In this document: one piece after another, positions 1,316 through 60,419 of the stretch
How the letters are laid out: each line of letters opens with the position of its first letter
How positions within the stretch are numbered: the stretch's first letter is position 1
DNA from: Nocardioides pini
GTDB lineage: Bacteria; Actinomycetota; Actinomycetes; Propionibacteriales; Nocardioidaceae
Length of the DNA stretch: 64,000 nt
Reading direction: 5' to 3'
Assembly: GCF_026712185.1 (NCBI RefSeq)
Contig: NZ_JAPPUX010000003.1
Coordinates: forward strand, 248,001 to 312,000
Position numbers and translations under genes: made by a program
The notes under the pieces: generated by a model
The model's input: the letters and a program-made list of their open reading frames with translations, nothing else
What the model was told of the DNA's origin: nothing
Databases searched by the model: none

Positions 1316-1325
1316 CCCACAGACG

Positions 1326-40046: not shown

Positions 40047-40073
40047 CCTTGGCGTCGACTTGGAGCCCACTTG
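40047..40073 (-). promoter_or_regulatory. 11-bp-period direct repeats (SARP-type operator, site 1)
   Basis: On the minus strand the pentamers CAAGT (40073-40069), CAAGT (40062-40058) and CAAGG (40051-40047) start 11 bp apart. The proximal repeat ends 49 bp before the start codon of the secreted-protein gene. Direct repeats at one-helical-turn spacing are the classical SARP/BTAD operator geometry. Confidence 0.6.
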
Positions 40074-40159
40074 AGGAGTGGCGCAGCGTGCCCAGAATCG
40101 GGGCCGCGGACAGCCGTCGAAGCGCCCTATCCTCGACGGAGGTCGACACGAGGAATGGG

Positions 40160-42037
40160 GTGGACGGACAGCCGGATCTCAACCTGCACGTGCTCGGCGA
40201 GCTCACGGCCACCCGGGATGGCGCGGTCGTGGACCTCGGCGGGCGACGCCAGCGCGCCGTGCTGGCGGCGCTGGCGATGCAGCGTGGCCAGGTCGTGACC
40301 GCTGACCACCTGGTCTACTGCGTGTGGGGCGACCACACGCCGGCGAACGCGAGCGGCGCGCTGCAGGCGTACGTCAGCCACCTGCGCAAGCGGCTCCAGC
40401 CCGACGCGACAGCACGGCAGCGTGACGGGGTCATCGCCCGGGCCGGGCCCGGCTACGTGCTGCGGCTGCCGCCCGACGCCGTGGACGCGTGGGCGTTCGA
40501 GGCCGCGGTCGAGGCGGCGGCGGGCCAGGCGCCGGGGGACGCGGTGTGCACGCTGGAGACGGCGCTGCGCACCTGGCGCGGGCCGGCGTACGCCGACTAC
40601 GCCGGGGAGGCGTGGGCCGAGGCCGAGGTCGCCCGGCTCACCGAGCTGCGCGGGGTCGCCCGCGAGCGGCTGCTCGCCACCCGGCTCGAGCTCGGGGAGG
40701 CGCAGCTCGTCATCGGCGACCTCGAGGCGCTGGTCAAGGAGGACCCGCTGCGCGAGGAGCGTTGGCGGCTGCTCACCCTCGCGCTCTACCGGGCGCACCG
40801 GCAGGCGGCCGCGCTCGAGGCACTGCGACGGGCGCGGACGGTGCTCGCCGACGAGCTCGGTGTCGACCCCGGACCGGCGCTGCGCGCGCTGGAGGCCGAG
40901 GTGCTCGCGCAGTCGCCCGACCTCGACGGGCCGCGGGCCGCACCGACCGCCGCCCCGGCGACGCTGGTCCCACGACCCCGCACCCCCGACGGTCTCGTCG
41001 ACCGCGACCACGAGATGGACCTCCTCAGGACCAAGCTCGACGAGCTGGCCGACGGGACGTCGGGCTGCGTGCTCATCGAGGGTCCGGCGGGGATCGGCAA
41101 GACGCGGCTGCTCGAGGAGCTCCGCCGCCTCGCCGTGGCGGCCGGCACCTGGGTGCGGTCGGCGCGGTGCAGCGCGCTGGAGCAGGACTTCGAGTGGGGA
41201 GTGGCCCGGCAGCTCTTCGGCGCCGGGGTGGACGGCGTCCTGGCGCGCGACGAGCGCTTCGCCGTGCTGCGAGGGCTGTGCGAGCTGACGACCCGGCTCG
41301 CCGAGGAAGCGCCGTTCGTGCTGTGCGTCGACGACGTCCAGCGGTGCGACGAGGCGTCGCTGCAGTTCCTCGCGTACCTCGTCCGGCGCCTCGAGGGACT
41401 GCCCGTCCTCGTCGTCCTGGCGATGCGCACCGGCGAGTCGCACCAGGCCGACGACCTCGCCGAGCTGGTCGCGGACGAGACGGTGACCGTCGTACGCCCC
41501 GAGCCGCTCACCGAGCAGGGCACCGCCGCGCTCGTCACCGACCGGCTCGGTCGCGGCGCCGACGCGTTCGTCGCCACCTGCCACCGGATGACGTCGGGCA
41601 ACCCGCTGCTGCTGCGCCAGCTGCTGCGCGCGCTCGCCGACCAGGGCATCCCGCCCGACGCCGCCCACGTCGACACCGTCCGGGCCGTGGGCTCGCGCGC
41701 GGTGACCTCGCTGGTGACGCTCCGCCTGCGGCGGATGCCGGCCGCGGTCACCACGGTCGCGCGCGCGGTCGCCATGCTCGGGCCGATGGCCGACCTGCGG
41801 AGCGTCGCCGACCTCTCGCAGCACTCTGAGGAGGAGGTCGCGAGCGCCCTCGACCTGCTCGCGCGCAGCGAGATCCTGCGCGACGGGCACCCGCTGGACT
41901 TCGTGAACCCACTCGTCCGCGACGCGATCCACGCCGACGTCCCCACCGGCGAGCGCGCCCTGCTCGTCGAGCGGCTGAACCGGCGGCTCAAGTCAGCCTC
42001 AAGTTCTGCTGACCATGCTGGAGCGCCGAGATCGTGA
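40160..42037 (+). CDS. BTAD/AfsR-type regulator with ATPase, short form
   Basis: A 625-residue regulator. It carries an N-terminal OmpR-like DNA-binding domain (LHVLGELTATRDG, GRRQRAVLAALAMQRGQVV, YVSHLRKRLQP), the BTAD domain (about 100-245, with DPLREERWRLLTLALYRAHR and LGVDPGPALRALEAEVLA) and an AAA-type ATPase with EGPAGIGKTRLL and FVLCVDDVQRCDEASLQ. It stops after NPLVRDAIHADVPTGERALL with no TPR region, whereas large relatives such as the 60365 gene continue for hundreds of residues. The last codons (RRLKSASSSADHAGAPRS) overlap the CAAGT repeats of the next promoter, which suggests a deletion that joined it to the oxidoreductase promoter. GTG 40160 follows GAGGAATG. Binds DNA in the cytoplasm; likely controls the neighbouring repeats. 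Confidence 0.82.
   Translation: MDGQPDLNLHVLGELTATRDGAVVDLGGRRQRAVLAALAMQRGQVVTADHLVYCVWGDHTPANASGALQAYVSHLRKRLQPDATARQRDGVIARAGPGYVLRLPPDAVDAWAFEAAVEAAAGQAPGDAVCTLETALRTWRGPAYADYAGEAWAEAEVARLTELRGVARERLLATRLELGEAQLVIGDLEALVKEDPLREERWRLLTLALYRAHRQAAALEALRRARTVLADELGVDPGPALRALEAEVLAQSPDLDGPRAAPTAAPATLVPRPRTPDGLVDRDHEMDLLRTKLDELADGTSGCVLIEGPAGIGKTRLLEELRRLAVAAGTWVRSARCSALEQDFEWGVARQLFGAGVDGVLARDERFAVLRGLCELTTRLAEEAPFVLCVDDVQRCDEASLQFLAYLVRRLEGLPVLVVLAMRTGESHQADDLAELVADETVTVVRPEPLTEQGTAALVTDRLGRGADAFVATCHRMTSGNPLLLRQLLRALADQGIPPDAAHVDTVRAVGSRAVTSLVTLRLRRMPAAVTTVARAVAMLGPMADLRSVADLSQHSEEEVASALDLLARSEILRDGHPLDFVNPLVRDAIHADVPTGERALLVERLNRRLKSASSSADHAGAPRS
41989..42004 (+). promoter_or_regulatory. 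11-bp-period direct repeats (SARP-type operator, site 2)
   Basis: CAAGT at 41989-41993 and 42000-42004, each preceded by CT (CTCAAGT), lie exactly 11 bp apart inside the last codons of the BTAD gene. The proximal repeat ends 43 bp before the GTG at 42048. That spacing agrees with the other sites and supports this start for the oxidoreductase. Confidence 0.6.
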
Positions 42038-42047
42038 GGTGGTGACG

Positions 42048-43406
42048 GTGAAGCAGGCCGAGGGTCTACGCCCACTGGCGGGCGGTGCTGTCCACCTGCC
42101 CGGCGACCCCCTCTACGACGAGGCGCGGATGCCGTGGAACCTCCAGGTCGACGAGCACCCGGCCGCGGTCGCCTACCCGGCCGACCCGCACGAGGTCGCG
42201 CGGATCGTCCGCGCCGCCACGGAGGCCGGCCTCCGGGTCGCGCCCCAGGGCACCGGCCACGGGGCCCCGCCCCTCGCGGGCCGGCTCGGCGACGCGGTGC
42301 TGCTGCGCACGTCGGCGATGACCGGGCTGCGCGTCGACGCCGCCGGTCGTACGGCGCGCGCCGAGGCCGGCGTGCTGTGGGGCGACGTCGTCACCCGCGC
42401 CGGCCGCGTCGGTCTGGCCGGTCAGCACATGTCCAGCCCGGGCGTCGGCGTCGTCGGCTCGTCGCTCGGTGGCGGCGTGAGCTGGTACTCGCGCCAGCAC
42501 GGCCTGCAGTGCAGCGGGATCACGGCCGTCGAGCTCGTGCTCGCCGACGGGACGTTCGTCCGCGCCACCGACGACCAGGACCCGGACCTGCTGTGGGCGG
42601 CCCGCGGCGGCAGCGGCGGCTTCGGGGTGGTCACCGCGCTCGAGTTCGACCTGCTGCCGATCCGGACGGCGTACGCCGGCATGCTGGCGTGGGACTGGCG
42701 GCACGCCCAGCGCGTGCTCACCGCCTGGGGCGAGTGGACGGCGGACGCCCCCGAGTCGGTGACGAGCGTCGCGCGGATCTTCCAGGTGCCCGACATCGAG
42801 TGGCTGCCCGGCGAGCTGCGCGGCCGGAAGATGGTGATGATCGACGCCGTCGCGCTCGGCGACGCCGAGGAGGGTGCCCGCTCCATCGCCCCGCTGCGCG
42901 CGCTGAAGCCCGAGATCGACACCTTCACGCAGATGCCTGCACCCGACATCGCGCACCTGCAGATGGACCCGCAGGAGCCCACCGCGGTCTACGCCAACAG
43001 CGTCCTCGTCGAGGGCTTCCCCGCGGGCGCGGTCGACGCGCTCGTCGAGGCCGCCGGCCCCGAGTCCGGCAGCAACCTGCTCTTCGTGGAGCTGCGCCAG
43101 CTGGGCGGCGCGCTCTCGCGCCCCTCGCCCCGCGGTGGCGCGCTCGACCATCTGCCGGCCGCGTTCCTGGTGCTGGGCGTCGGCCTCGACGTGGGCACCG
43201 GGTGGGACGCCGTCCGGGCGGACGCCCTGCGGATCCTGGACTCGCTGGCGCCGTGGTCGTCGCGTGCGTCGTACCTCTCCATGGCCTACGAGGCCGCCGC
43301 CCGGCGCGGGTTCGCGGCAGAGGCCTACGAGCGGCTGGTGCGGATTCGTGAGTCCGTGGACCCCAATCGTGTGTTTGTCGCACCTCGCGCATCCGCCGAC
43401 GACTGA
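42048..43406 (+). CDS. FAD-linked oxidoreductase (FAD-binding_4 / BBE type), copy 1
   Basis: A 452-residue flavoprotein of the VAO/berberine-bridge fold. The FAD-binding region has PADPHEVARIVRAA, the His-containing loop PQGTGHGAPPLAG, the diphosphate loop GVGVVGSSLGGGVSW and AARGGSGGFGVVTALEFDL. The C-terminus (YERLVRIRESVDPNRVF) is the usual substrate-lid end of the family. No secretion signal is seen, so it is cytoplasmic. It oxidises an unidentified alcohol, sugar or secondary metabolite. Starts at 42015, 42042 and 42048 are possible; 42048 leaves room for a promoter downstream of the CAAGT repeats. It is paralogous to the next gene. Confidence 0.85.
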   Translation: MKQAEGLRPLAGGAVHLPGDPLYDEARMPWNLQVDEHPAAVAYPADPHEVARIVRAATEAGLRVAPQGTGHGAPPLAGRLGDAVLLRTSAMTGLRVDAAGRTARAEAGVLWGDVVTRAGRVGLAGQHMSSPGVGVVGSSLGGGVSWYSRQHGLQCSGITAVELVLADGTFVRATDDQDPDLLWAARGGSGGFGVVTALEFDLLPIRTAYAGMLAWDWRHAQRVLTAWGEWTADAPESVTSVARIFQVPDIEWLPGELRGRKMVMIDAVALGDAEEGARSIAPLRALKPEIDTFTQMPAPDIAHLQMDPQEPTAVYANSVLVEGFPAGAVDALVEAAGPESGSNLLFVELRQLGGALSRPSPRGGALDHLPAAFLVLGVGLDVGTGWDAVRADALRILDSLAPWSSRASYLSMAYEAAARRGFAAEAYERLVRIRESVDPNRVFVAPRASADD

Positions 43407-43421
43407 ATCCGCGACGCGGCT

Positions 43422-43448
43422 CAAGTCGACCTCAAGTCTTCTGCAAGT
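43422..43448 (+). promoter_or_regulatory. 11-bp-period direct repeats (SARP-type operator, site 3)
   Basis: Three perfect CAAGT pentamers start at 43422, 43433 and 43444, exactly 11 bp apart, in the 92-bp gap before the second oxidoreductase. The proximal repeat ends 50 bp before the ATG at 43499. This is the clearest of the five copies in the window. Confidence 0.75.
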
Positions 43449-43498
43449 GCCCGGGTGCACCTTCGTGACGTCAACGACGACATCACACGGAGGAAGCA

Positions 43499-44866
43499 AT
43501 GACCATCGCACAGACCAGCCCCGCAGCCGTACCGTTCGCGGAGCTGGACGCACTCACGATCGGCACCGTCGCGGTGCCCGGCGACAAGGCGTACGACGCC
43601 CTCGTCTCGCCGTGGAACCTCGCCGTCCCGGTCCAGCCGGCCGCCGTCCTGGCCGCCTTCGACGCCTGGGACGTCGTCGAGGCCGTGCAGTTCGCGGCCC
43701 GCCACGGCATCCGCGTCACCCCGCAGGCCACCGGCCACGGCCCGATGGCGGAGCTGACCACCGAGCTGCTGGTCACCACCAAGGAGCTCGACGAGGTCGT
43801 CATCCACCCCGAGGAGGGCTGGGCCCGCGTCGGAGCCGGCGTGAAGTGGCTGAAGGTCGTGGAGGCGGCCGCGCCGTACGGCCTGGCGCCCCTCTCGGGC
43901 TCGATCACCGACGTCGGGATCGTCGGCTACACCACCGGCGGCGGGCTCGGCCCGATGGCCCGCACCCACGGGCTCGCGATCGACAAGGTCCGCGCCATCG
44001 AAGTCGTGACCGGTGACGGCGCGCTGCGGAGGGTCACGCCGACCGAGCACCCCGAGCTCTTCTTCGCCCTGCGGGGCGGCAAGGGGATGCTGGGCATCGT
44101 CACGGCGATCGAGTTCGACCTGGTCCACCAGCCGCGCTTCTACGGCGGCTCGACGTGGTTCGACGGCGCGGACGCGCCGGCGGTCATCGAGGCCTGGCGC
44201 GCGTGGTCGGCCGAGCTGCCCGAGGAGGGCACGACGTCGTTCGCGCTCTTCCAGCTGCCCGAGATGGAGGGCGTGCCGCCGATGCTCGCCGGCCGGCTCA
44301 CCCTGTCGATCCGCTTCGTGTGGACCGGCTCCGCCGAGGAGGGGGAGCGCTGGTTCGCCGCGATGCGGGCCGCCGCGCCGGCCATCCTCGACGACGTCAC
44401 CGAGAAGCCCTACGCCGCGATCGACTCGGTGCACACCGACCCGCTCGACCCGACGCCGGCCCACGAGGCGGCCGAGGTGCTCGCCGAGTTCCCCGCGGAG
44501 GCGGCTTCTGCCTTGCTGGAGCTGACGGGACCGGGCGTCGCGTCTCCGCAGATCCTGGTCGAGGTGCGCCAGCTCGGTGGCGCGTACGCCCGGCCGGGCG
44601 AGCACCCCGCCGCGTTTGCCTCGCGCGACGCGGCGTACTCGCTGCTCGTCGTCGGCATCGCCGCGATCCCCGGTGTGGAGGACCACGCCGCCGCGATCCT
44701 CGAGGCGATGGCGCCGTGGGTCGGCGGCCACCGGCTGCCGAACTTCACGTTCACGCCCGAGGAGTACGTCGACGCCTACGACGAGGTGACCCTCGCCCGG
44801 CTGCGGCGCGCGCGCCGGACGTACGACCCGGACGGCGTGCTGATGATCGGCGGCGTGCTGGCGTGA
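43499..44866 (+). CDS. FAD-linked oxidoreductase (FAD-binding_4 / BBE type), copy 2
   Basis: A 455-residue flavoprotein, paralogous to the gene at 42048. Matching landmarks are PGDKAYDALVSPWNLAVPVQP, PQATGHGPMAEL, ITDVGIVGYTTGGGLGPMAR and ALRGGKGMLGIVTAIEFDL. The C-terminal part (LARLRRARRTYDPDGVLMIG) is the family's usual ending. It is cytoplasmic, with substrate unknown. ATG 43499 is preceded by GGAGGAAG. Its own repeat-bearing promoter shows that it is not simply an operon follower of copy 1 but is controlled in parallel. A strong hairpin at 44875 ends the unit. Confidence 0.87.
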   Translation: MTIAQTSPAAVPFAELDALTIGTVAVPGDKAYDALVSPWNLAVPVQPAAVLAAFDAWDVVEAVQFAARHGIRVTPQATGHGPMAELTTELLVTTKELDEVVIHPEEGWARVGAGVKWLKVVEAAAPYGLAPLSGSITDVGIVGYTTGGGLGPMARTHGLAIDKVRAIEVVTGDGALRRVTPTEHPELFFALRGGKGMLGIVTAIEFDLVHQPRFYGGSTWFDGADAPAVIEAWRAWSAELPEEGTTSFALFQLPEMEGVPPMLAGRLTLSIRFVWTGSAEEGERWFAAMRAAAPAILDDVTEKPYAAIDSVHTDPLDPTPAHEAAEVLAEFPAEAASALLELTGPGVASPQILVEVRQLGGAYARPGEHPAAFASRDAAYSLLVVGIAAIPGVEDHAAAILEAMAPWVGGHRLPNFTFTPEEYVDAYDEVTLARLRRARRTYDPDGVLMIGGVLA

Positions 44867-44874
44867 CCCCCCGG

Positions 44875-44911
44875 CGACCCGTGGCCCCCTGGTTGGTGGG
44901 GCCACGGGTCG
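44875..44911 (+). terminator. 37-nt hairpin terminator, one of two near-identical copies
   Basis: CGACCCGTGGCCCC (44875-44888) pairs perfectly with GGGGCCACGGGTCG (44898-44911) around a 9-nt loop (CTGGTTGGT). It lies 8 bp after the oxidoreductase stop. A very similar 37-nt element occurs at 47412-47448, so this is also a dispersed repeat. Confidence 0.8.
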
Positions 44912-44990
44912 TGTCGCGCCTCGAGGCCGTTGTCCACAGATGCGCGGGAGCGTCTGGCGCCGCGCCGACGTGACGCCGTTCAGTGGGGAC

Positions 44991-46229
44991 ATGCCTCGAT
45001 CACGTCACCGTCGAAAAGGACGCAGCCGCACATCGCATTCGTCTCCGGTGCGACCCCTCGCATCGCCATTCGACGTCGACATCCGGGCCCAGATGCCCTG
45101 GCTCCGGCGGATGCTGGCTGTCGACGATGCCGAAGCCGCGGGCAACGCCGCGAAGGCGCTCGCCTTGGTTGAGGGAATGCCCATTGGGCCCGATGGCAGG
45201 CCGTGGTGGCGGCCCCAGCGCGTGCGCAGGCTGCGCCAGCTGGTGGCCCTCGGCGACGCGGTGCCCGACTGGGTGTGGGGGCGCTGGGTGATCGCCCAAG
45301 CGGCACAGCCGAGGCCCGGCCGCGACACGGACGCCTCGGACGTCGCCGTCGAGATCCGGGGTGGTCGCAGCACGCTCTGGGGCGTGGACCCGGACGACGC
45401 CATGACCAAGGTCATCGGCCACGACTGGGTCTTCCGTCAGCTGATCCTGCACGAGCGCGGCGGTCTCGACCACTTCCTGCGACGCGTCGCGGGGCCGCGC
45501 CTCCTCGATCTAGCCGGCGACGTCCACTCCTGGGTCGGGGTCCCCATGGGCGCGTTCGAGCTCGTGTCCGAGCGGGCCGACCGAATCGTGTGGCGCGATC
45601 TCGGCACCGGGGTGGCCGTCGACACCCTCAATCTCGGAGGGGCGTCATTGATGGCGCTGGGTGAGGCAGCCATCGGTCGCGTCGTGCGCTCAGGTGAGGT
45701 GTCTTTGTTCGAGAGCCCTCCGCTCTGTGTCCCGCCCGACGTCGCGCACGACGTCGCCACGTCACCAGCCAACTGGATGGATGCCCTGAATCGGGGGTGC
45801 CGCGAGGAGTGGGGTGCCGTCCTGGCGGACCTGATCGCGAAGGCCCACGAGTTCGACCTCCTCTTCGACCTGTCCTCACGCCTTCGTCGACACGTCCTGC
45901 AACCGGTCGACCCGGACCTGCGCTGCGACAACGTGGGCACCGGGGGCAACGGAGCGGACTACGACGTGGCGCTGGTGCTTGCTGCTCTGGGCGGCGAGCT
46001 GCCGCTCAAGGGTGACGACGCCTACGACGCGCGGTGGGGAGCCGATGCCATGCGACCACTTGCGCCGCTGGTCTCGGCCGCGCTCCTTGAACCGGACACT
46101 CGCGCGGCGATCGAACCGCTCCTCCTGGCGTCGGACGCCGCGGCCGTGTCGCGTCTGGTGGACGTCCTCGTGCCACCCGCCGACGCGTTATGCCGGCAGA
46201 TCCGCGACCAGCTCTCCGGCGCGGCCTGA
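44991..46229 (+). CDS. hypothetical protein
   Basis: A 412-residue soluble protein with a short basic N-terminus (MPRSRHRRKGRSRT). The rest is mixed alpha/beta, with acidic loops, e.g. FDVDIRAQMPWLRRMLAVDD, VIGHDWVFRQLILHERGGL, WVGVPMGAFELVSERADRIV and DLRCDNVGTGGNGADYDVAL. No membrane segment, signal peptide or catalytic motif is recognised. ATG 44991 follows AGTGGGGAC; upstream in-frame codons lack a ribosome-binding site. It stands alone after the terminator at 44875 and ends 26 bp before the toxin-antitoxin pair. Codon use is host-like. Confidence 0.65.
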   Translation: MPRSRHRRKGRSRTSHSSPVRPLASPFDVDIRAQMPWLRRMLAVDDAEAAGNAAKALALVEGMPIGPDGRPWWRPQRVRRLRQLVALGDAVPDWVWGRWVIAQAAQPRPGRDTDASDVAVEIRGGRSTLWGVDPDDAMTKVIGHDWVFRQLILHERGGLDHFLRRVAGPRLLDLAGDVHSWVGVPMGAFELVSERADRIVWRDLGTGVAVDTLNLGGASLMALGEAAIGRVVRSGEVSLFESPPLCVPPDVAHDVATSPANWMDALNRGCREEWGAVLADLIAKAHEFDLLFDLSSRLRRHVLQPVDPDLRCDNVGTGGNGADYDVALVLAALGGELPLKGDDAYDARWGADAMRPLAPLVSAALLEPDTRAAIEPLLLASDAAAVSRLVDVLVPPADALCRQIRDQLSGAA

Positions 46230-46241
46230 TGCCATCGGCGC

Positions 46242-46866: not shown

Positions 46867-46909
46867 ACGCCCCGGACCCCAGGCCGTGGAGGACTCAGGT
46901 CGTCTGGCG

Positions 46910-47448: not shown

Positions 47449-47454
47449 TTGGCG

Positions 47455-49421: not shown

Positions 49422-49442
49422 GGGGCGGAGTCGTACGACGTG

Positions 49443-49720: not shown

Positions 49721-52384
49721 ATGGCGGTGCCCGGCACGAAGCTGCGCGTGCCGCTGTCGCGCCGAAAGCTCGTGGACCGCACCCGCCTCACGGACCGGCT
49801 GCCCACCGGCCGCGACGCGATGCCACGGCTCGTGCTGGTGGCGGCGCCGGCCGGGTCGGGGAAGACCACGCTGCTGGGCCAGTGGCTCGCGGCCGGTGAC
49901 GTCCGGTCCGCCTGGCTCTCGCTCGACGCGGCGGACGGTGACCTGCGGCGGTTCCTCACGCACCTCGTCGCGGCCGTCCGGTTGTGCGCGCCCGAGGTGG
50001 GTGCCGAGGCCGCGGCGCTGCTCGCCGACGGGCGGAACGTCCGGGCGGAGGACCTGCTGGCCGGCTTGGTCGACGACCTCGACGCGCTGGCGGGACCCAC
50101 GGTCATCGCGCTCGACGACTACCACGCTGTCGACGGCACCGAGGTGCACGAGGCGGTCTCCTTCCTGCTCGACAACCTGCCGCCGCGGGTGACGGTGGCG
50201 ATGACGACGAGGTCAGACCCGCCGCTGCCCCTGTCGCGGCTCCGGGCCCGTGGTGACCTGCTCGAGGTCCGGGCCGGCGACCTCCGGTTCACCACCGCGG
50301 AGGCGACGACGTTCCTCAACGAGGTCATGGGGCTCGGCCTCGAGCCCCGGCACGTCGCCGCGCTCGAGCAGCGCACCGAGGGGTGGGCCGCCGGGCTGCA
50401 GCTCGCCGCACTGTCGGCCGCCGGCACGGCCGACCCGGACGGCTTCGTCGAGGCGTTCGCGGGCAGCCACCGGTTCGTCCTCGACTACCTCGTCGACGAG
50501 GTGCTCGCCGGCCAGCCCACCGACGTCCGGTCGTTCCTGCTCGACACCTCCGTCCTCGACGACCTCAGCGGGCCAGTGTGCGACGCCGTCACCGGCCGGA
50601 CCGACGGCCAGCAGCTCCTGGAGGCGCTCGAGCGGGCGAACCTCTTCGTGGTCCCGCTCGACGACGAGCGGCAGTGGTGGCGCTACCACCACCTCTTCGC
50701 CGAGGCGCTGCGCGCGCGGCTCGCTGCCGGCGGCGCCGAGCGCGCCGGGCACCTCCACCAGCTCGCGGCGAGCTGGTACGCCGAGCACGACCGCCTCCCC
50801 GACGCCGTCAGGCATGCCCTCGCCGGTGGCGACGTCGACCAGGCCGCCGACCTCGTGGAGCTCGCCGTGCCCGGGATGCGCCAGCGACGAGAGGACCGGG
50901 CGATGCGCGAGTGGCTGCGGGCCCTGCCGGAGGACGTCGTACGACACCGCCCGCTGCTGGCGATGCACCTCGCGTGGGCACGTCTGTCCGAAGGGGACCT
51001 CGACGGGCTCGACCGGTGGCTCGACGCGGCCGAGACCGCCTTGGAGTCGCCGCGGGCGCCGCGGCCGTCGGCCGTTCCGGCTCACGCACGCGAGGAGCGC
51101 GACCGTGACCTGGCGACCTTGCCGGCCATGGTCGAGGTCTACCGGGCCACCGTCGCCCAGGCCCGGGGCGACGTCGGCGGGACGACCGCCCACGCGACCC
51201 GGGCCCGCGACCTCGTCGGGCCCGACGACCACTTCGTGCTCGGGGCATCGTCGGGCTTCCTCGGCCTGGCCGCCTGGGCCGCCGGGGACCTGGCGGGTGC
51301 TTCGGAGACGTTCGGCGAGGCGGCGCGCCACATCCGGGCCGCGGGCAACATCGCTGACGGGCTCGGGATGACGGTCGTGCTGGCCGACATCGCCCGCGGG
51401 CGGGGCCGACCGGACGAGGCCCGACGCCTCCTCGAGCGCGCACTGGCGACGGCCGAGTCGACCCCTGGTCCGCTGTCGACCACCGGCGACCTGCACGTCG
51501 CGCTCGCCGACGTGCTGGTCGAGCACGGCGCGCTCGCCGAGGCCGAGGCACACCTGCACGCGGCAGCCGAGCTGGGCGAGCGGGCGTCCCTGATCGAGAA
51601 CCGGCACCGCCTCCACGTGGCGCGGGCCGCGCTGCTCCGGGCGCGTGGTGACCTCGACGGCGCGGTCACCGCGCTGGACGAGGCGCAGGCGCTCCTGCTG
51701 CCCGGCTACCTCCCGGAGGTGCGGCCCGTCCCGGCGCTGCGGGCCCGGATCCGCATCGTGCAGGGCCGGCTCGACGACGCACGGGAGTGGGCGTCCGCGC
51801 ACGGGGTGGACCTCGAAATGGGGGACCACCTCAGCGAGGTCGACCGGCTCACCCTCGCCCGGCTGCTCGTCGCGGAGGGCGACCGACTCGACGACGTGGT
51901 CGCCGCGACCGAGCGGATCGCGACGGAGGCCGGGGCCGCCGGGCGCGGGGGAAGCGTCGTCGACGCGCACGTCGTACGCGCCCTCGCGCACCGGGCCGAG
52001 GACGACCGCGACGCCGCGCTCGCGGCCCTGGGGGAGGCGCTCGCGCTCGGGGTGCCCCACGGGTGTCGCCGGCTCTACCTCGACGAGGGCGCCGCGATGG
52101 TCGGGCTGCTCGAGGCGCGCGGGGACGAGCTCGCGGCCACAGTGCTCGCGGCGGGTGCGAACGACGAGCCCGCGCCGCGGCCCGCGCAGGCCAACGGGCT
52201 CAGCGAGCGCGAGCTCGCGGTCCTGCGGCTGCTCGCGACCGATCTCAGCGGACCCGAGATCGCGCAGCGGCTCTACGTCTCGCTCAACACCCTCCGCACC
52301 CACACCCGGCACATCTTCGCCAAGCTCGACGTGAACACCCGCCGGGCCGCCGTGCGCAGCGCGACGGAGCGCGGGCTGCTCTGA
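49721..52384 (+). CDS. MalT/LAL-type LuxR-family transcriptional regulator
   Basis: An 887-residue ATP-dependent activator. The N-terminal ATPase has Walker [16 protein letters not shown] near residue 45 and a Walker B-like [12 protein letters not shown], followed by the [18 protein letters not shown] and [11 protein letters not shown] region typical of MalT. TPR-like repeats fill about residues 360-800. The C-terminal LuxR helix-turn-helix reads [20 protein letters not shown] and [18 protein letters not shown]. It probably senses a small ligand or protein partner and activates the membrane-protein operon just downstream (52495-54037). The start is set by the -10 at 49709. Confidence 0.9.
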
Positions 52385-54037: not shown

Positions 54038-54410
54038 GGTCGGGCGGCACGTCGACGGAGTGCGCCCGCAGCACCTCGAGGGGTACGACGTCGAGCGCGC
54101 GCTCCGAGGTCGCCGACAGCACGACCGGGGCGGCCACCCCGGCGTCGTACGCCTGGAGCCAGCGGACGGCGACCACGCACCACCGGTCACCGGGGACGAG
54201 ACCGGGGAAGTGCCACTCCGGTCGGGGGGCGGCCAGGTCGTTGCCCACCGACGCCTGGTGGGCGAGGAACTCCTCGGTCATCACCGCGCAGACGGCGTGG
54301 AGGCCCACGTCCTGCGGGCCGACGGTGCACGTGCCGTCGCGGTGGAAGCCCGTCAGGGGGTCGGTGCCGCACGGGTCCAGCTCGCCGCCGAGGACGTTGC
54401 GTTCCGTCAT
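54021..54410 (-). CDS. DUF2237 family protein
   Basis: A 129-residue protein with the family pattern MTERNVLGGELDPCGTDPLT, GFHRDGTCTVGPQDVGLHAV, CAVMTEEFLAHQASVGNDL and PGDRWCVVAVRWLQAY. Full length, cytoplasmic, function unknown; conserved cysteines suggest a metal or redox site. It follows a weak AUCUCCCC-complement (GGGGAGA is the reverse strand) and overlaps the convergent small ORF by 17 nt. Confidence 0.87.
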   Translation of the reverse strand: MTERNVLGGELDPCGTDPLTGFHRDGTCTVGPQDVGLHAVCAVMTEEFLAHQASVGNDLAAPRPEWHFPGLVPGDRWCVVAVRWLQAYDAGVAAPVVLSATSERALDVVPLEVLRAHSVDVPPDLSALD

Positions 54411-54480
54411 GGGGAGATCATCGCGCGAGGAGGGCAGAAGGTCCCTTGCCGGGAGGCCGGGAGCGGCGCATGGTGGACGG

Positions 54481-54666
54481 ATGAAGGCTCAGGTGGGCGA
54501 CAACCTGGTCGCCGAAAGCAACAAGGTGGACGCCGCGCCGAGGCGCGGCGAGATCGTCGAGGTGCGCGGCGAGGACGGTGGCCCGCCCTACGTCGTGAGG
54601 TGGAGCGACGGCCACGAGGGACTCGTCTACCCCGGCAGCGACGCGCACGTCGTACCCCACGACTGA
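54481..54666 (+). CDS. DUF1918 family protein
   Basis: A 61-residue protein matching DUF1918, an SH3-like barrel common in Actinobacteria: MKAQVGDNLVAESNKVD, RRGEIVEVRGEDGGPPYVVR and WSDGHEGLVYPGSDAHV. Complete. ATG 54481 lies after GGGAGCGGCGCATGGTGGACGG with a distant GGAGG. Role unknown, possibly nucleic-acid or protein binding. It stands alone between a divergent DUF2237 gene and the terminator at 54667. Confidence 0.88.
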   Translation: MKAQVGDNLVAESNKVDAAPRRGEIVEVRGEDGGPPYVVRWSDGHEGLVYPGSDAHVVPHD

Positions 54667-54699
54667 GGGCCGGCGCCCCCCCGAGGGGAGCGCCGGCCC
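54667..54699. terminator. bidirectional terminator hairpin
   Basis: GGGCCGGCGC (54667-54676) pairs with GCGCCGGCCC (54690-54699), with additional C/G pairing inside the loop. It lies directly after the DUF1918 stop and 16 bp from the end of the convergent MMPL gene, so it can serve both. Confidence 0.75.
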
Positions 54700-54715
54700 G
54701 GGGACGCCGGTCGGG

Positions 54716-56827
54716 CTAGACCCCGACGAGCTCGCGCTCGGGGGTCGGCTCCTCCTCGGCCTCGACCCGGACGGTGGGCAGCAGCCGGTCGAGCCAGCCG
54801 GGGAGCCACCAGTTCCAGTGCCCGAGCAGCGACATCGTGGCCGGCACGAGCACCATCCGGACGAGGGTCGCGTCCAGGACGATCGCGACGGCCATCCCGA
54901 GCCCGAGCTGCTTGACGACCACGTCGCCCTCGGTGGCGAAGCCGAGGAACACGACCACCATGATCGCGGCGGCCGAGGTGATGACCCGGCCGGTCGACGA
55001 GAGGCCGCGGACCACGCTGCCGCGCGGGTCGCCGGTGCGCAGGTAGTCCTCGCGGATCCGCGACAGCAGGAACACCTCGTAGTCCATCGACAGGCCGAAC
55101 AGGATCGCGAACTGCAGGATCGGCATCCAGCTCGAGACGGGCATGGGCTGGTCGACGCCGATCAGCTCCGCCGCCCAGCCCCACTGGAAGACCGCGACCA
55201 GCACGCCGTAGGCGGCGCTGATGGACAGCAGGTTCATCGCCGCGGCCTTGAGGGGCACCAGCACCGAGCGGAACATCAGCGCGAGCAGCAGCACCGAGAC
55301 GCCGACGACGAACGCGATCACCAGCCACAGGCGCTGCTGCAGCATGTCGGAGATGTCGGAGAAGTACGCCGTCCAGCCGGTCACCTCCGCGCTCGCCGGG
55401 AGCGCCGCCCGCAGGTCCTCGACCAGGGCCGGGGTGCGCTCATCCGTCGGCCCGAAGGCGGGCTCGGCCGTGATGATCGAGAGCGCGCCGTCAGGGGTGG
55501 TGACCACCGGTTCGACGCCGGCGATGCGGTCGTCCGCACGCAGCGTCGCCACCGCCTCGTCCGCGGCACCGGTGGCGGAGGTCGGCACCACCACGGTCAG
55601 CGGGCCGTTCGCACCGGGACCGAGCTCGGCGGCGACCAGGTCGTACGCCTGCCGCGTGGTGTTGCCGGCCGGCTGGCTGCTCGCGTCGCCGGGCCACGTG
55701 CGCAGGTCGAGCACGGGCGCAGCGAGCACCAGCAGGGCGCCGAGGCTGACCAGCGCCCAGACCAGCGGCCTGCGTCCGACGCGCGTGGCCCAACGGGCGG
55801 TGAGCGGCTCGCGGGTGCGCACCGGACGGTTGCGGCGGACGGCGCGGGGCAGCAGCCGGCGACCACCCAGCCGGCACAGCGCCGGCACCAGGGTCAGGGC
55901 CGCCCCCGCGACGAACACGACGGCGATCGCGGTGGCGAGGCCGAACGAGTCGTACGTCGACAGCCCGGCGAGGCGCAGGCCCATCAGCGAGACCAGCACG
56001 GTCACCGCGGCGAACACGACCGAGCGGCCCGACGTGGCGACCGCCCGGCCGGCGGCCTCGACGGCGTCGTGCCCGAGGCGGAGGTTCTCCACGTGGCGGG
56101 TCACCATCAGCAGCGCGTAGTCGATGCCCACGCCCAGCCCCACCATGGAGGCGACCATCGGCGCGGAGGTGCTCACCGTCATGGTGGCGGCGAGCAGGGC
56201 GATGCCCGAGCTGCCGACGGCGAGACCGGCGACGGCCGCGCCGATCGGGATCCCGGCGCCGACGGCGGAGCCGAGAGCGATCACGAGGATCAGCAGGGCG
56301 ACCCCCACGCCGACGAGCTCACCGGTCCCGCCGATGGCCTCGCCGGCGGTGTCGGGGACCTCGCCGCCGAGCTCCACCTGCAGGCCGGAGTCGATCGTGG
56401 CGGCGATCGCGCCCTCGAGCGGCTCGATGTTGCCCATCAGGTCGGGGTGCGTGATCGGTTCGGCGTACTGCACGGTGAGGACAGCGGTGTCGCCGTCGTC
56501 GCTGAGCCGGGCCGGACCGACGTCGGCGACGTGCTCGAGGCCGCGCAGGCGCTCGGTCAGCGCGCCGACCTCGGAGGAGGGGAGCGCGTCGCCCTCGCGG
56601 TCGTGGACCACGACGCGGGCGCTGGCGAACCCGCCGACGCCGTGCTCGCGCAGCTGGTCGATGCCCTGCTGGGCACGGGCGCCCGGGACGTCCCAGTCGT
56701 CGCGCAGCGGGGCGCCGAGCGACGAGGCGAGCGCCGCGGCGGTGGCCACGAGCAGGACCCAGGCGCCGATCACCCGCCACGGATGGGCGGCGGACGAGCG
56801 GCCGAGACGGTTGAGGTACGACGACAT
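54716..56827 (-). CDS. MMPL/RND-family membrane transporter
   Basis: A 703-residue exporter with a 12-helix duplicated MMPL fold: one helix at 20-40, an extracytoplasmic loop, five helices, then the repeat. The duplicated GxxxDY proton-relay motif appears as LGVGIDYALLMVTRHVENLR in the first half and LFGLSMDYEVFLLSRIREDY in the second. Relatives move lipids, siderophores or drugs out of the cell; the cargo cannot be read from sequence. ATG 56827 (MSSYLNRLG) is preceded by AGGAGAC; the longer frame upstream is spurious. CAAGT-type repeats lie 53 bp upstream. It ends at a bidirectional terminator. The BTAD regulator gene is directly upstream in the same direction. Confidence 0.9.
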   Translation of the reverse strand: MSSYLNRLGRSSAAHPWRVIGAWVLLVATAAALASSLGAPLRDDWDVPGARAQQGIDQLREHGVGGFASARVVVHDREGDALPSSEVGALTERLRGLEHVADVGPARLSDDGDTAVLTVQYAEPITHPDLMGNIEPLEGAIAATIDSGLQVELGGEVPDTAGEAIGGTGELVGVGVALLILVIALGSAVGAGIPIGAAVAGLAVGSSGIALLAATMTVSTSAPMVASMVGLGVGIDYALLMVTRHVENLRLGHDAVEAAGRAVATSGRSVVFAAVTVLVSLMGLRLAGLSTYDSFGLATAIAVVFVAGAALTLVPALCRLGGRRLLPRAVRRNRPVRTREPLTARWATRVGRRPLVWALVSLGALLVLAAPVLDLRTWPGDASSQPAGNTTRQAYDLVAAELGPGANGPLTVVVPTSATGAADEAVATLRADDRIAGVEPVVTTPDGALSIITAEPAFGPTDERTPALVEDLRAALPASAEVTGWTAYFSDISDMLQQRLWLVIAFVVGVSVLLLALMFRSVLVPLKAAAMNLLSISAAYGVLVAVFQWGWAAELIGVDQPMPVSSWMPILQFAILFGLSMDYEVFLLSRIREDYLRTGDPRGSVVRGLSSTGRVITSAAAIMVVVFLGFATEGDVVVKQLGLGMAVAIVLDATLVRMVLVPATMSLLGHWNWWLPGWLDRLLPTVRVEAEEEPTPERELVGV

Positions 56828-56880
56828 GGTGGTCTCCTGCGGGTGCGGGTCGGGCTGACCCCACGACCCTGCGGCCGCGA

Positions 56881-56907
56881 CCTTCGGGCGCACTTGGACC
56901 TCGCTTG
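56881..56907 (-). promoter_or_regulatory. 11-bp-period direct repeats (SARP-type operator, site 4)
   Basis: On the minus strand the pentamers CAAGC (56907-56903), CAAGT (56896-56892) and a weaker GAAGG (56885-56881) start 11 bp apart, 53 bp before the MMPL start. They lie just after the BTAD gene stop at 56937. Confidence 0.5.
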
Positions 56908-56936
56908 GGTCCTCGACCCAAGAGCGCCCCAACCGC

Positions 56937-59900
56937 TCAGAAGCCGAGCTGCTCGCGGCGCGCGACCAGCCAGTCGGCGTACGCCGTGAAGCCCCACTCC
57001 TCGCCCTGGTGCAGGGCGCGGGCTGCCGCCTCGGCCGCCTCCTGCCGCCGTCCGGTGGCGGCCAGGGCCAGCGCGAGGTAGCCGTCGATCGGGCCCATCA
57101 CGGTCGAGATGCCGCTGATCGCGATCCGACCGCGCAGCGGTGCGAGGCGCGCGGCCATCTGCTCGGACAGGGGTACGTCGCCCGCTACGGCCGCCGCCTC
57201 GGCGACGGCGCACCACGTGGTCGCGCTGCTCCAGTTGTCCACCCGGTGGATGATCGGCGTGACCAGCTGCGCGCGCAGCCGGCCGAGGTCGCCGACGCGG
57301 GCGATGGCGAGGAGCAGGACGTCGGCGGCCATGTCGTTGTCGGCGACCTCCATCGCCGTTGCGATCGGTTCGATGAGCTCACCGATGCGCTCGTCCCACA
57401 GGTGCGACATCAGGTGGATGCCCATGAGGTGCAGTGCCTCGTTGCCCGCGTTCAGCCGCGGTCGCAGGGCGTGGAGCTCGCCCGCCAGCCGACCCACGGT
57501 CGCCTCGTCGCGCCGCAGCGAGGCGAGGCTGAGGTCGATCCACCCCAGCGCCACCTGCGCGTAGGAGTTGCGGCGGCGGGACGCGAGCCGGGCGGTCGCC
57601 GCCGCGGCGTCGACGTACGCTGGCCGGTCGCCCAGCTCCAGCAGGTTGCCGGTCAGCAGGACCGACGCGACGACCTCGGCGTCCGGGTCCGCCGCCTCCC
57701 GAGTGGCGCGCAGCGCCTCCCGCGCCAGCTCGAGCCGGGCGTCGGCGTGGGCCGGGGTCCAGAGGGCCTTCCAGGCGGTCTCCGCCGCCCAGGCCAGCAG
57801 CGCGGGGTCGCCGACCCGGCGGGCCATGGCGACGCCCTCCTCGGCGAGCGCGCGCACCTCGGCGCGGGCAGAGGGCTCGTAGTAGAGGAGCACTGCGAGC
57901 GCCAGCATCACCCGGCACCGCTCCACCGAGTCACCGTGTGGCAGCTCGGCCATCGCCCAGCGCAGGTCCTCGACGGCGTCCTCGGGCACGTCGTTCCACT
58001 GCTGCGGCATCCAGACCGACCCGTCGGACGCGGCCGCTGCTGCCGCGGCGAGCCGGGGCAGGTCGCCCTCGCGACGGGCCAGGGCGATCGCCTCCTCCGC
58101 GCACGGCAGGACCTGGTCCCACTCCGCGTTGGGACGGCAGTCGTGCGCCCGGGTCAGCAGGAGGTCGATCCGCTCCTCGGTCGTGCCGAGGGGGTCGCGA
58201 CGGTGCGCGTCGATCGCCGCGGCGACGAGCTGCTCGGCCTCGACCCACGAGAAGGTACGACGGGCCTGCGCCGCCGCGTCGGCCGCTGCCCGCCAGGCCC
58301 GGCCGACGTGGGTGGGTCCGGCAGCGAGCCAGTGCCGGGCGAGCTCGGCGACGCGCTCCTCGCGGCCGACCGTCCCGCCGGCCGCGGCGTCGTCGGCGAG
58401 GGTGTGGGCCACCTGGGCGTGCAGCCGCGCGAGCCGCGACGGGCTCGCGGTCGTCACGACGGCGTCGCGGGTGAGGGCGTGCGTGAAGGCCACGACGCCG
58501 GCCTCGGGGTCCTCCACCAGCCCCGCCTCGCGTGCCGGGGTCAGCGCGTCGTCGACGTCCTCCGCCGGCTCACCCGCCACCGCCGCCACGAGGTCGAGCG
58601 AGGAGCGCCGGCCCAGGACGGCGGCGAGGAGGAGCAGCTCGCGGGTCCGCTCGGGCAGGTCCTGCAGCCGCCGCACGATGACGTCGCGGACGGTCGCTGG
58701 CAGCGTGGTGCTGTCGCGGGCGTCGAGCCGGGCGAGCTCGACGAGGAAGTAGGGGTTGCCGCCCGAGCGCCGGTGCCAGTCGTCCAGCACCTCGGCGGGT
58801 ACGACGGTGCCCGTCACGGCGTCCACCAGGCTCCGGGCCTCCTGCGGGGTCAGGCCGGAGAGGTCGAGACGGGTCACGTGGTGGCGCGCCAGCTCCTCGC
58901 CGACCTCGGCCAGGTCGCCGGTCGGCTCGGGCAGCCGGCGTCGTGTCACGACCACCGCGAGCCGGTGCCCGGGTGCGGCGCTCGTGACGAGGTGGCGCAG
59001 CACCTTGAGGCTGGCCGTGTCGGCCCAGTGCAGGTCGTCGAGCACCAGCAGGACCGGACCGGACGACGACCGGGAGGTGACCTCGTGCGCCAGCCGCTCC
59101 CGGGCGAGGAACGCCTCGCGCTCGGCGTTGCCGTCGGTGCCGGACGGTGCGCCGGCCAGCAGCTCCGCGACGCGGCTGTCGAGGTCGCCGTCGGAGAGCT
59201 CGCGCAGGGCCTGGCCCCAGGGCCACAGGCTGGGGGCGCCGTCGTCCTGCGAGCACCTGCCGGTCGCCACCCGGAACCCGCGCTCGCGTGCCGCGGCCAT
59301 CACCTGGGAGACCAGCCGCGACTTGCCGATGCCGGGCTCGCCGACGAGGAGGGCGGTCGCCGGCGTGCCGGCCTCGGCGCGGGCCAGCACGTCGAGCAGC
59401 GCGGCCTCCTCGGCCTCGCGGCCGACCGTCGGCCACCCGACGGTCGTCCCGGTCGTCGATGCCCCCGGTGCCGGTGACGGTGCCGGGGTGTCGGCCGCCG
59501 GCGCGGGCGCGGGAGCGGACCCGTTCGCGCTGGCGCGCAGCCAGCGGTGCAGGGCGGGGTCCTGGACGAGCACGGCCTGCTCGAGCTCGCGCAGCTCGTG
59601 CCCCGGGTCGAGGCCGAGCTCGTCGGCGAGGACGGACCGGATCTGCCGCAGCGCGGCGAGGGCCTCGGCCTGCCGGCCGGAACGGGTCAGGGCGAGCGCG
59701 TGCATCGCCCAGACGCGCTCGCGGAGCGGGTACCTCGCCGTCGCCTCCTCAGTCGCGGCCACGACCACGGCATGGTCGCCGAGGGCGAGCAGGCCCAGGA
59801 CCCGCGCCTCCTCGGCGTCGAGCCGGAGCTGGTCGAGGGACGTGCGCTCGAGGACGACCTCGGGCTCGTCGGGGAGGTCGGCGTACGCGTCACCGGTCCA

Positions 59901-60365
59901 CAGGGCGAGCAGCTCCTCGATCCGGTCCACGCTCCGCGAGACCTCCTCCCGGCTCGGCCAGTCGGCCCTCGGCCCGGTGGAGAGCTGGCCGGCGAGGGGC
60001 GCGAGCGACCGGTGCAGGCTGCGGACCTCGTCGGCGAAGCGGTGGGCGTCGACGTGCTCGCGGTCGAGCGCCAGCCGGTAGCCGTGGTCGCTGGTCAGCA
60101 GCACCCGGGGCTTCTCCCGCGGGCCGAGGCCGGGCTCGAGGACGCGACGGACGCCGGAGAGGTAGGAGTGCAGGGTGCCGTGCGCGCCGCGGGGCGCGTC
60201 CTCGCCCCAGACGAGACGGACCAGCGCGTCGGGCGGGACGTCGCTGCCGAGCCGGAGGGCCAGTGCGGCGAGGACGGAGCGCGGCTTGCGGGCGCCGACG
60301 TCCACGGTGGCGGCCGGTTCGTCGCCGAGCGCCACCTGGCTCGTACCGAGCACGCGGACCCACAC
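56937..60365 (-). CDS. BTAD/AfsR-type regulator with ATPase and TPR region
   Basis: A 1142-residue regulator. The OmpR-like DNA-binding domain (VWVRVLGTSQVALGDEP, RKPRSVLAALALRLGSDV, SYLSGVRRVLEPGLG) is followed by a BTAD domain (RYPLRERVWAMHALALTRSG and LGLDPGHELRELEQAVLVQD), an Ala/Pro linker near 285-310 and an AAA_16 ATPase with LLVGEPGIGKSRLV and LLVLDDLHWADTAS. A long TPR-like helical region runs to the end. GTG 60365 gives VWVRVLG, the normal family start; upstream codons to 60395 have only a TTG. No Shine-Dalgarno is visible. It is divergent from the hemerythrin gene and upstream of the MMPL gene, both of which carry CAAGT repeats, so both are likely targets. Confidence 0.88.
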   Translation of the reverse strand: MWVRVLGTSQVALGDEPAATVDVGARKPRSVLAALALRLGSDVPPDALVRLVWGEDAPRGAHGTLHSYLSGVRRVLEPGLGPREKPRVLLTSDHGYRLALDREHVDAHRFADEVRSLHRSLAPLAGQLSTGPRADWPSREEVSRSVDRIEELLALWTGDAYADLPDEPEVVLERTSLDQLRLDAEEARVLGLLALGDHAVVVAATEEATARYPLRERVWAMHALALTRSGRQAEALAALRQIRSVLADELGLDPGHELRELEQAVLVQDPALHRWLRASANGSAPAPAPAADTPAPSPAPGASTTGTTVGWPTVGREAEEAALLDVLARAEAGTPATALLVGEPGIGKSRLVSQVMAAARERGFRVATGRCSQDDGAPSLWPWGQALRELSDGDLDSRVAELLAGAPSGTDGNAEREAFLARERLAHEVTSRSSSGPVLLVLDDLHWADTASLKVLRHLVTSAAPGHRLAVVVTRRRLPEPTGDLAEVGEELARHHVTRLDLSGLTPQEARSLVDAVTGTVVPAEVLDDWHRRSGGNPYFLVELARLDARDSTTLPATVRDVIVRRLQDLPERTRELLLLAAVLGRRSSLDLVAAVAGEPAEDVDDALTPAREAGLVEDPEAGVVAFTHALTRDAVVTTASPSRLARLHAQVAHTLADDAAAGGTVGREERVAELARHWLAAGPTHVGRAWRAAADAAAQARRTFSWVEAEQLVAAAIDAHRRDPLGTTEERIDLLLTRAHDCRPNAEWDQVLPCAEEAIALARREGDLPRLAAAAAAASDGSVWMPQQWNDVPEDAVEDLRWAMAELPHGDSVERCRVMLALAVLLYYEPSARAEVRALAEEGVAMARRVGDPALLAWAAETAWKALWTPAHADARLELAREALRATREAADPDAEVVASVLLTGNLLELGDRPAYVDAAAATARLASRRRNSYAQVALGWIDLSLASLRRDEATVGRLAGELHALRPRLNAGNEALHLMGIHLMSHLWDERIGELIEPIATAMEVADNDMAADVLLLAIARVGDLGRLRAQLVTPIIHRVDNWSSATTWCAVAEAAAVAGDVPLSEQMAARLAPLRGRIAISGISTVMGPIDGYLALALAATGRRQEAAEAAARALHQGEEWGFTAYADWLVARREQLGF

Positions 60366-60392
60366 GCGCAGCAACGTAGCGGGAAACGGGCC

Positions 60393-60419
60393 CAAGTCGC
60401 TCTGGAGTGTGGCTCAAGA
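60393..60419 (+). promoter_or_regulatory. 11-bp-period direct repeats (SARP-type operator, site 5)
   Basis: CAAGT (60393-60397), a degenerate GGAGT (60404-60408) and CAAGA (60415-60419) start 11 bp apart. The proximal repeat ends 43 bp before the hemerythrin ATG. The site lies in the gap shared with the divergent BTAD gene, so it may also serve autoregulation. Confidence 0.5.

Follow-up and report, generated by a model that had tools for sequence, protein, structure and literature searches.

CAAGT-type repeats with an 11-bp period as probable operators of AfsR-like BTAD regulators beside flavoenzyme, exporter and hemerythrin genes in Nocardioides pini and other actinobacteria

Results and discussion

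Five promoters with 11-bp-spaced repeats

We analysed five promoters that share CAAGT-type direct repeats with an 11-bp period, all located in a stretch of 64,000 nucleotides (nt) from Nocardioides pini (NCBI RefSeq assembly GCF_026712185.1, contig NZ_JAPPUX010000003.1, positions 248,001 to 312,000 of the forward strand), hereafter called the window; the source genome comprises 4.53 Mb in 15 contigs. The repeats lie beside two genes for regulators with a BTAD domain, and we consider it probable (about 0.8) that they are operators of AfsR-type activators, i.e. large members of the SARP family, which would drive local cassettes of flavoenzyme, exporter and hemerythrin genes. Control by BTAD/SARP proteins had been proposed in an original prediction made from the window alone, and this putative assignment is strongly supported by the linkage of the boxes to BTAD genes, by a SARP-like promoter geometry and by conservation.

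Site A (40047..40073, minus strand; units CAAGT/CAAGT/CAAGG with 11-bp spacing) is upstream of a gene that we call secA. Site B (41989..42004, plus strand) has two units only, CAAGT/CAAGT, which lie within the last codons of the regulator gene BTAD1, upstream of FAD1, while site C (43422..43448, plus strand), with three exact units CAAGT/CAAGT/CAAGT, is intergenic and upstream of FAD2. Site D (56881..56907, minus strand; CAAGC/CAAGT/GAAGG) precedes a gene of the MMPL family, and site E (60393..60419, plus strand; CAAGT/GGAGT/CAAGA) precedes the hemerythrin-type gene HHE, divergent from the second regulator gene, BTAD2. Re-reading of the sequence returned the same coordinates, strands and 11-bp spacing as the original prediction, and its range of 43–53 bp between the proximal repeat and the start codon agrees with our values of 49, 43, 50, 53 and 43 nt for A to E, the value for B assuming that FAD1 starts at the GTG at 42048. 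We also found a feature absent from that prediction: at all five sites a -10-like hexamer, deduced from the sequence, begins exactly 9 nt past the last unit (A: GACGGT, 40032..40037, minus strand; B: CATGCT, 42014..42019, plus; C: CACCTT, 43458..43463, plus; D: CAGGGT, 56866..56871, minus; E: GATCGT, 60429..60434, plus). These hexamers end 28–38 nt upstream of the start codons.

For scoring we used a box model made of relaxed CAAGT units 11 bp apart, a gap of 9 nt and a [CG]ANNNT -10 part, the latter trained on 11 sites from other families only, and the unit consensus being that of the original prediction. The five sites (A 28.3, B 23.1, C 33.3, D 21.9, E 23.1) are the five highest-scoring positions of the window, and the next best scores 13.7. 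Because the unit consensus was taken over, the real test is provided by simulated windows rather than by the ranking alone; the best score in 20 first-order Markov windows was 19.0, and all five sites (at least 21.9) exceed it. An initial model with hand-set probabilities had given the same top five (23.0–35.7; next 13.4), and was replaced since it had been set after the window sites were seen. A test of the sites by open reading frames was dropped, as the DNA is GC-rich and the patterns differ in stop-codon content.

Across the whole genome, the exact pattern CAAGTN6CAAGT occurs four times, always within sites A to C (C holds two), and its reversed control five times. The longer pattern CAAG-N7-CAAG-N11-A-N3-T, which combines two units with the -10 part, is found five times, i.e. 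at A, B, C and two positions elsewhere, and twice in reversed form. The two positions outside the window are 384 and 1193 bp from two other BTAD matches, and none of the five, which form three clusters, is farther than 2.6 kb from a BTAD match; the genome has 14 such matches, and the regions of 5 kb on either side of them make up about 3.1% of it.

Boxes of this kind occur near four of the 14 BTAD matches. One BTAD gene outside the window (C1:986 kb; C, G, L and f numbers are our handles for contigs, genomes, loci and families) and a second hemerythrin gene (Pfam 53.1 bits) are transcribed divergently; the latter is accompanied by an ABC transporter gene and has a box of three CAAGA units. Another (C9:616 kb) stands behind a secreted-protein-like gene (judged by eye) that carries a two-unit box; downstream of this BTAD gene lies another FAD_binding_4 gene, whose box is weaker (17.5). 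The two occurrences of the longer pattern outside the window stand in front of these hemerythrin and secreted-protein-like genes. Around the other ten matches no position reached 14 in the surrounding 20 kb, one of these matches being just 0.8 kb away from the end of its stretch. This genome has a fourth FAD2 homologue at C11:587 kb, and additional hemerythrin homologues are encoded at C10:193 kb and C11:363 kb.

The regulators and the putative target genes

Both regulators beside the sites have Pfam BTAD matches, as had been predicted, BTAD1 lying by sites A to C and BTAD2 by D and E. BTAD1 (40160..42037, plus strand; 625 amino acids, aa) is AfsR/EmbR-like and combines Trans_reg_C, i.e. the winged helix-turn-helix (wHTH), with BTAD and AAA_16, all above the Pfam cut-offs, and ends at 625 aa. 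BTAD2 (56937..60359, minus strand; 1140 aa) is AfsR-like, with BTAD (105.6 bits) and AAA_16 above the cut-offs, and its alignment to EmbR and AfsR begins at residues 14 and 17, respectively. EmbR (2fez) is the top sequence match in the PDB for both (E-value 1.6e-41 for BTAD1 and 5.5e-26 for BTAD2), and both also match the AfsR structures 8hvr, 8jke and 8k60 over the SARP part. By eye, their recognition-helix regions differ. In a tree of 46 BTAD sequences, 31 of them labelled as having a site, the label is clustered (6 changes against a mean of 12.9 after shuffling; none of 500 shufflings gave a value as low), although the clustering is inflated by near-copies, some rows labelled "no site" come from short contigs and four "site" labels (L029, L034, L035 and the BTAD of this genome at C9:616 kb) were assigned by hand. 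The site-linked BTADs do not form one clade; by eye, the loop that follows their recognition helix is longer.

As to the targets, Pfam supports two FAD_binding_4 oxidases, an MMPL protein and a hemerythrin, as named in the original prediction, and the secreted and membrane character of the others was judged by eye. The secA product (39518..39997, minus strand; 159 aa) has an N-terminus that resembles a signal peptide by eye, and no Pfam or NCBIfam match at an E-value of 0.001. FAD1 (42048..43406, plus strand, with a presumed GTG start) is McrA/EncM-like, and FAD2 (43499..44866, plus strand) likewise has the mitomycin radical oxidase McrA (9r43) as its nearest solved structure; 9r43 matches FAD1 with an E-value of 1.7e-60 (208.3 bits) and FAD2 with 8.8e-77 (262 bits), over nearly the whole length (about 425 residues), with EncM next. 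Both also hit the BagK/FevA1 model NF041226 of NCBIfam (295.8 and 388.5 bits), under its curated cut-off of 800. The MMPL family exporter (54716..56827, minus strand) has 703 aa. HHE (60463..61194, plus strand; 243 aa) has a hemerythrin domain (PF01814, 44.6 bits against a cut-off of 25.3) with histidine and glutamate ligand positions in place by eye, and is followed by a gene for a protein of 232 aa (61206..61904, plus strand) that is hydrophobic by eye and has no Pfam match. A homologue of the latter trails HHE in loci L177 and L179, and none was found in L178.

Conservation in Nocardioides and closely related loci

Conservation of the repeats upstream of orthologues had been suggested as a check. 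The closest named BTAD1 loci are from Nocardioides, and in all nine of them (L019–L027) sites B and C are kept, together with a hexamer at the same offset: [CG]ANGCT in 9/9 for site B, and CACCTT in 8/9 and CACCGT in 1/9 for site C, whose second or third unit is often CAAGC or CAACC. Site A is present wherever secA was found (3/3), and in none of the six loci where secA was not found in the available stretch; it is also present in L178. Across L133–L136, which comprise the window and its three nearest hemerythrin orthologues, site E has the same units and hexamer, with varying spacer letters. A counterpart of site D precedes the MMPL gene in three of five further loci (L177, L178 and L179), namely those with an MMPL homologue, and retains CAAGC/CAAGT/GAAGG in L177 and L178. 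In the other two (L180 and L181), BTAD2- and HHE-like genes are accompanied by weak boxes only (15.8–16.3), and no MMPL homologue is present in the 20 kb. L178 has all five boxes in two contiguous modules, in the order FAD2-C-FAD1-B-BTAD1-A-secA and then HHE-E-BTAD2-D-MMPL. In the window about 10 kb lie between the modules, including genes for a DUF222 protein and a MalT-like LuxR regulator (49721-52384, plus strand; AAA_16, MalT TPR and GerE).

Occurrence in the class

We searched 394 genomes of the class for exact triples CAAGTN6CAAGTN6CAAG and found 33 places in 28 genomes. Controls gave 33 places in 24 genomes (reversed), 14 in 9 (10-bp period) and 70 in 53 (12-bp period), and we rejected the class-wide triple count as proof, since it equals the reversed control, is lower than the 12-bp control and exceeds only the 10-bp control. 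Twelve bp is a multiple of the codon, and by eye the 12-bp matches resemble lysine codons; the reversed control reads on the other strand as GTTCA-type, and may include real PhoP/AfsR-like sites. As raw triple counts are uninformative, any support comes from position and not from number, and we used the neighbouring genes and the phase of the -10 hexamer instead. The neighbour tests covered 30 of the 33 11-bp places, 30 of the 33 reversed, all 14 of the 10-bp and 30 of the 70 12-bp places. A homologue of FAD1/2, MMPL or HHE was found within 1.5 kb of the triple in 14 of 30 loci, as against 0/14 for 10 bp, 0/30 for 12 bp and 1/30 for the reversed control (Fisher P-value 3e-7 for 11-bp against 10- and 12-bp triples combined, relatedness being ignored). 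The hexamer xAxxxT, which lies outside the triple search pattern, is present with an offset of 9 in all 15 target loci, namely these 14 and site A of the window, and in 8 of the 15 others, with only 0–2 occurrences at other offsets.

Among the matches listed, at least 15 of the 19 genomes tested, out of 27 match genomes other than G000, have a BTAD match no more than 6 kb from the site. The eight left out (G260, G374, G039, G173, G057, G301, G259 and G369) all lack a target-gene homologue at the site, and therefore their omission favours our reading; six of the 19 tested (G093, G095, G275, G055, G215 and G241) lack one as well. Class-wide counts are also not independent, because they include close relatives, as judged from box and flank sequence (G003/G159/G231 and G228/G358), and genomes that probably duplicate named loci (G136 with L020, G422 with L019).

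Searches that start from the genes lead to the same kind of box. Within 230 nt upstream, a box scoring at least 12 is present for 12 of 30 FAD2 homologues (the window's own included) and in none of 60 control windows, the 30 loci, from 66 genomes with a FAD2 match, being the best loci among 148 genomes. Directly upstream of hemerythrin homologues in the genus, a box of at least 16 was found in 7 of 30 loci (again including that of the window), drawn from 34 genomes with an HHE match. Some box-less HHE homologues have, by eye, CCAGC/CCAGT variants with unchanged phase, and some begin immediately behind the apparent end of an MMPL gene; likewise by eye, 11-bp repeats of CTAG, CATG or CCAG in place of CAAG, as though the regulators had dialects of the box, are seen upstream of FAD or HHE genes in L223, L225, L230 and L144. 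Farther afield, exact CAAGT pairs or triples precede hemerythrin homologues in Streptomyces (L029, L034 and L035, with a -10-like AAGACT one base nearer) and in a metagenome-assembled genome of Streptosporangiaceae (L028). In two 20-kb loci (L098 and L099), FAD, BTAD2-type, HHE and MMPL genes are combined, and either locus has two boxes; two others (L109 and L110) combine FAD, BTAD2-type and MMPL genes. Altogether, five families of the class (f1, f5, f21, f34 and f41) have the putative operator in front of a recurrent set of genes, and the combination of oxidases, exporter and oxygen/iron-binding protein is no local accident.

Two further groups of repeats were noted. In G172 (C56:26455-26557; L074, L093–L096), eight overlapping matches from a control search make up a TGAAC tandem with an 11-bp period close to a BTAD homologue, which could possibly be an array of GTTCA-type SARP operators. 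In two genomes of one genus (G057 and G301; L057 and L058), CAAGT triples stand directly before a gene that by eye is lipoprotein-like, and no BTAD1- or BTAD2-like protein is encoded within 1.5 kb of them.

Predicted mechanism and alternative explanations

From these observations we infer binding, activation, a signal, a substrate and roles for the cassette proteins as follows. Each box would serve as the operator for the adjacent activator, BTAD1 acting on A to C and BTAD2 on D and E, with possible cross-talk; this pairing is suggested because the modules are self-contained, and because the departures from CAAGT at D and E are retained in orthologues. Protomers would occupy neighbouring CAAG(T) units, each one helical turn from the next and all on a single face of the DNA, overlapping the -35 region, and would hold the sigma factor and RNA polymerase on a weak [CG]ANNNT -10 element 9 nt farther downstream. 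The STAND ATPase part, together with the long C-terminal part of BTAD2, may gate activation on a signal. The genes activated would form a defence or processing cassette, in which the FAD oxidases could act by reoxidation or oxidation on an aromatic or quinone compound that is redox-active, the MMPL pump could export this compound, the hemerythrin di-iron protein could handle oxygen, peroxide or iron, and the secreted protein would join them. Because the oxidases are nearest to mitomycin radical oxidase, the handling of redox-active compounds is put forward as a specific hypothesis. The mcrA gene is a mitomycin self-resistance gene situated outside the mitomycin cluster (PMC6804068), and by analogy a protective function would be coherent for a set in which an oxidase reverses the reductive activation of a quinone drug and is joined by a pump and a di-iron protein. 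As regards the redox or secondary-metabolite stress regulon that had been proposed, the gene set recurs across families and includes McrA-like oxidases, and may have such a redox role.

Several observations weigh against this interpretation. Sites D and E are imperfect, with a single exact CAAGT apiece, and class-wide triples are no more numerous than the reversed control (33 in either case) and fewer than the 12-bp ones (70). Genes for BTAD proteins within 1.5 kb are no more common (4 of 30 loci) than in the reversed control (5 of 30, one tandem array), and among the matches listed 4 of the 19 genomes tested have no nearby BTAD at all, as is also true of the two C16 sites of G139. Gene by gene, 18 of 30 FAD2 homologues lack an upstream box at threshold 12 and 23 of 30 HHE homologues lack a directly upstream one at threshold 16, and no CAAGT pair or triple was found in five of nine distant BTAD1 relatives (L030–L033 and L036), including L030, where BTAD, HHE and FAD genes are side by side. 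In the proteins, Trans_reg_C of BTAD2 scores 22.2 bits, under the Pfam cut-off of 26.2, the Pfam search called no TPR family in BTAD1 or BTAD2, although large SARPs are defined by a STAND/NOD ATPase together with a TPR sensor, and the likeness of the oxidases to McrA is at the family level, with EncM as the next-best match.

The repeats could in principle be due to chance or codon constraint, as site B lies within the last BTAD1 codons and triple counts are no higher than two of the three controls; given the model ranking and the simulation, the conserved -10 phase, the intergenic site C kept in 9/9 loci and the absence of target genes at the 10- and 12-bp controls (0/44), we regard this as extremely improbable. 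Another candidate reader of the boxes is a response regulator of the OmpR/PhoB type such as PhoP, with the BTAD genes as mere neighbours. PhoP boxes, too, are built of 11-nt repeat units, but PhoP-type repeats are GTTCA-like, and the reversed control, which is GTTCA-like on the other strand, marked target genes in only 1 of 30 loci. AfsR and PhoP share the direct repeats of afsS and compete there (PMC10972967). In our scan, which covered BTAD only, it is a BTAD regulator that is encoded near the sites in at least 15 of 19 genomes, as well as in L098 and L099, and control by PhoP or a relative appears improbable. Compared with both of these explanations, AfsR-type activators account better for the boxes.

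How many regulons the boxes represent is a question within SARP control. A shared box type at five promoters agrees with the single regulon originally envisaged, but two adjacent self-contained modules fit at least as well, and we consider it quite possible, at slightly less than even odds, that there are several independent local modules with a box dialect for each BTAD. This is consistent with the near-pure CAAGT of A to C, with the retention of CAAGT/GGAGT/CAAGA at site E in orthologues and of CAAGC/CAAGT/GAAGG at site D in L177 and L178, with the CAAGA triplet by the third BTAD, with the recognition-helix regions that by eye differ between BTAD1 and BTAD2, and with the two additional BTAD genes in this genome that have similar boxes; on the other hand, both modules are contiguous in L178, and in L098 and L099 one BTAD2-type regulator accompanies FAD and MMPL genes, both with strong CAAGT boxes. 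The cassette might also be biosynthetic rather than protective, forming an unrecognised small-molecule pathway. EncM is a biosynthetic enzyme, as are further FAD_binding_4 relatives (BagK and FevA, according to the names of NCBIfam models), and SARPs chiefly activate biosynthetic clusters (PMC10972967). However, the set is small (FAD, MMPL, HHE and the regulator) and recurrent in several families, and among those neighbours of the sites in the window that were typed with Pfam, which is only part of them, there is no polyketide or peptide synthase, the other genomes having been compared with window proteins only; we consider a biosynthetic role less likely than a protective one, but a real alternative. 

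A broader and rather speculative picture would be that of a widespread and so far undescribed actinobacterial stress system, in which paralogous STAND-SARP sensors, several per genome, each sense one class of redox-active natural products and respond through CAAGN-triplet operators specific to their module, switching on a reoxidising flavoenzyme of the McrA-like type, an MMPL pump, a hemerythrin-type handler of peroxide or iron and a secreted protein; SARPs would then be primarily detoxification switches that were later recruited by antibiotic clusters. SARPs have been studied mainly as switches of Streptomyces antibiotic clusters, and our results suggest a role of McrA-like flavin oxidases and hemerythrin proteins outside such clusters. 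They also provide candidate targets for AfsR-like proteins that have no assigned targets, and the definition of the operator (three 11-bp CAAGT-like units, 9 nt and [CG]ANNNT) makes the regulon directly testable.

Other features of the window

The first part of the window contains a defence island in DNA of lower GC content (4383-18913, plus strand), with PADLOC matches to the DISARM-type proteins DrmD (5966-9139, plus strand) and DrmMI (9136-13167, plus strand), a SIR2-like match (4383-5519, plus strand), a Helicase_C protein (13122-16832, plus strand) and an MZB protein (16805-18913, plus strand); we assume that the last two would fit DrmA and DrmB. The island is adjoined by a class II (B12-dependent) ribonucleotide reductase (727-4314, plus strand). 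Past the pair of hemerythrin and membrane protein genes there are genes for a cupin protein (61940-62653, minus strand) and a fatty acid desaturase (FA_desaturase_2; 62595-63533, minus strand), at which no position of the box model reaches 10.

Comparison with known systems

In a literature search judged by titles and the beginnings of abstracts, with preprints and most subscription papers outside it, we recognised no report of a BTAD-hemerythrin-MMPL-FAD regulon, of its recurrence across families or of a CAAGT-type SARP box. The mitomycin oxidase McrA shows homology to FAD1 and FAD2 over their full length, at the family level only. EmbR from Mycobacterium tuberculosis is the best PDB match of BTAD1 and BTAD2, yet it has a C-terminal FHA domain (PMC10936776), in contrast to the STAND ATPase found here. 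The SARP-LAL regulators PimR, SanG and PolR recognise the heptamer CGGCAAG, which shares the CAAG core and, with 4-nt spacers, the 11-bp period, and the PimR site has three copies (PMC3367932); the PimR operator does not overlap a -35 element, and the targets are the pimaricin, nikkomycin and polyoxin systems. The CGG that precedes CAAG in the PimR/SanG operator was not found at any unit of A to E, where the three preceding letters are CCT, CTC and CGC (A), GCT and CCT (B), GCT, CCT and CTG (C), ACC, GTC and CCC (D), and GCC, TCT and GCT (E).

The closest likeness is to AfsR from Streptomyces coelicolor and its afs box, which combine a wHTH, BTAD and STAND ATPase protein with 11-bp direct repeats before a weak CACTGT-type -10 element (PMC10936776). 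There are clear differences: the afs unit is CGTT(T/C)ATCGNN (PMC10972967) as opposed to CAAGT, the afs box has two units where four of our five sites have three, the targets in the window are an oxidase, exporter and hemerythrin set, and BTAD1 is short (625 aa) with no TPR called. The promoter architecture as such, however, is a known one. In published SARP promoters the repeats have a spacing of 11 or 22 bp, and 8 bp separate the 3' repeat from the -10 element; in the AfsR structures two adjacent protomers span the -35 region and hold region 4 of the sigma factor, the -10 element of afsS being CACTGT (PMC10936776). The 9 nt between pentamer and hexamer at all five sites become 8 if the repeat is extended by one base, in agreement with the 8-bp spacing of SARP promoters.

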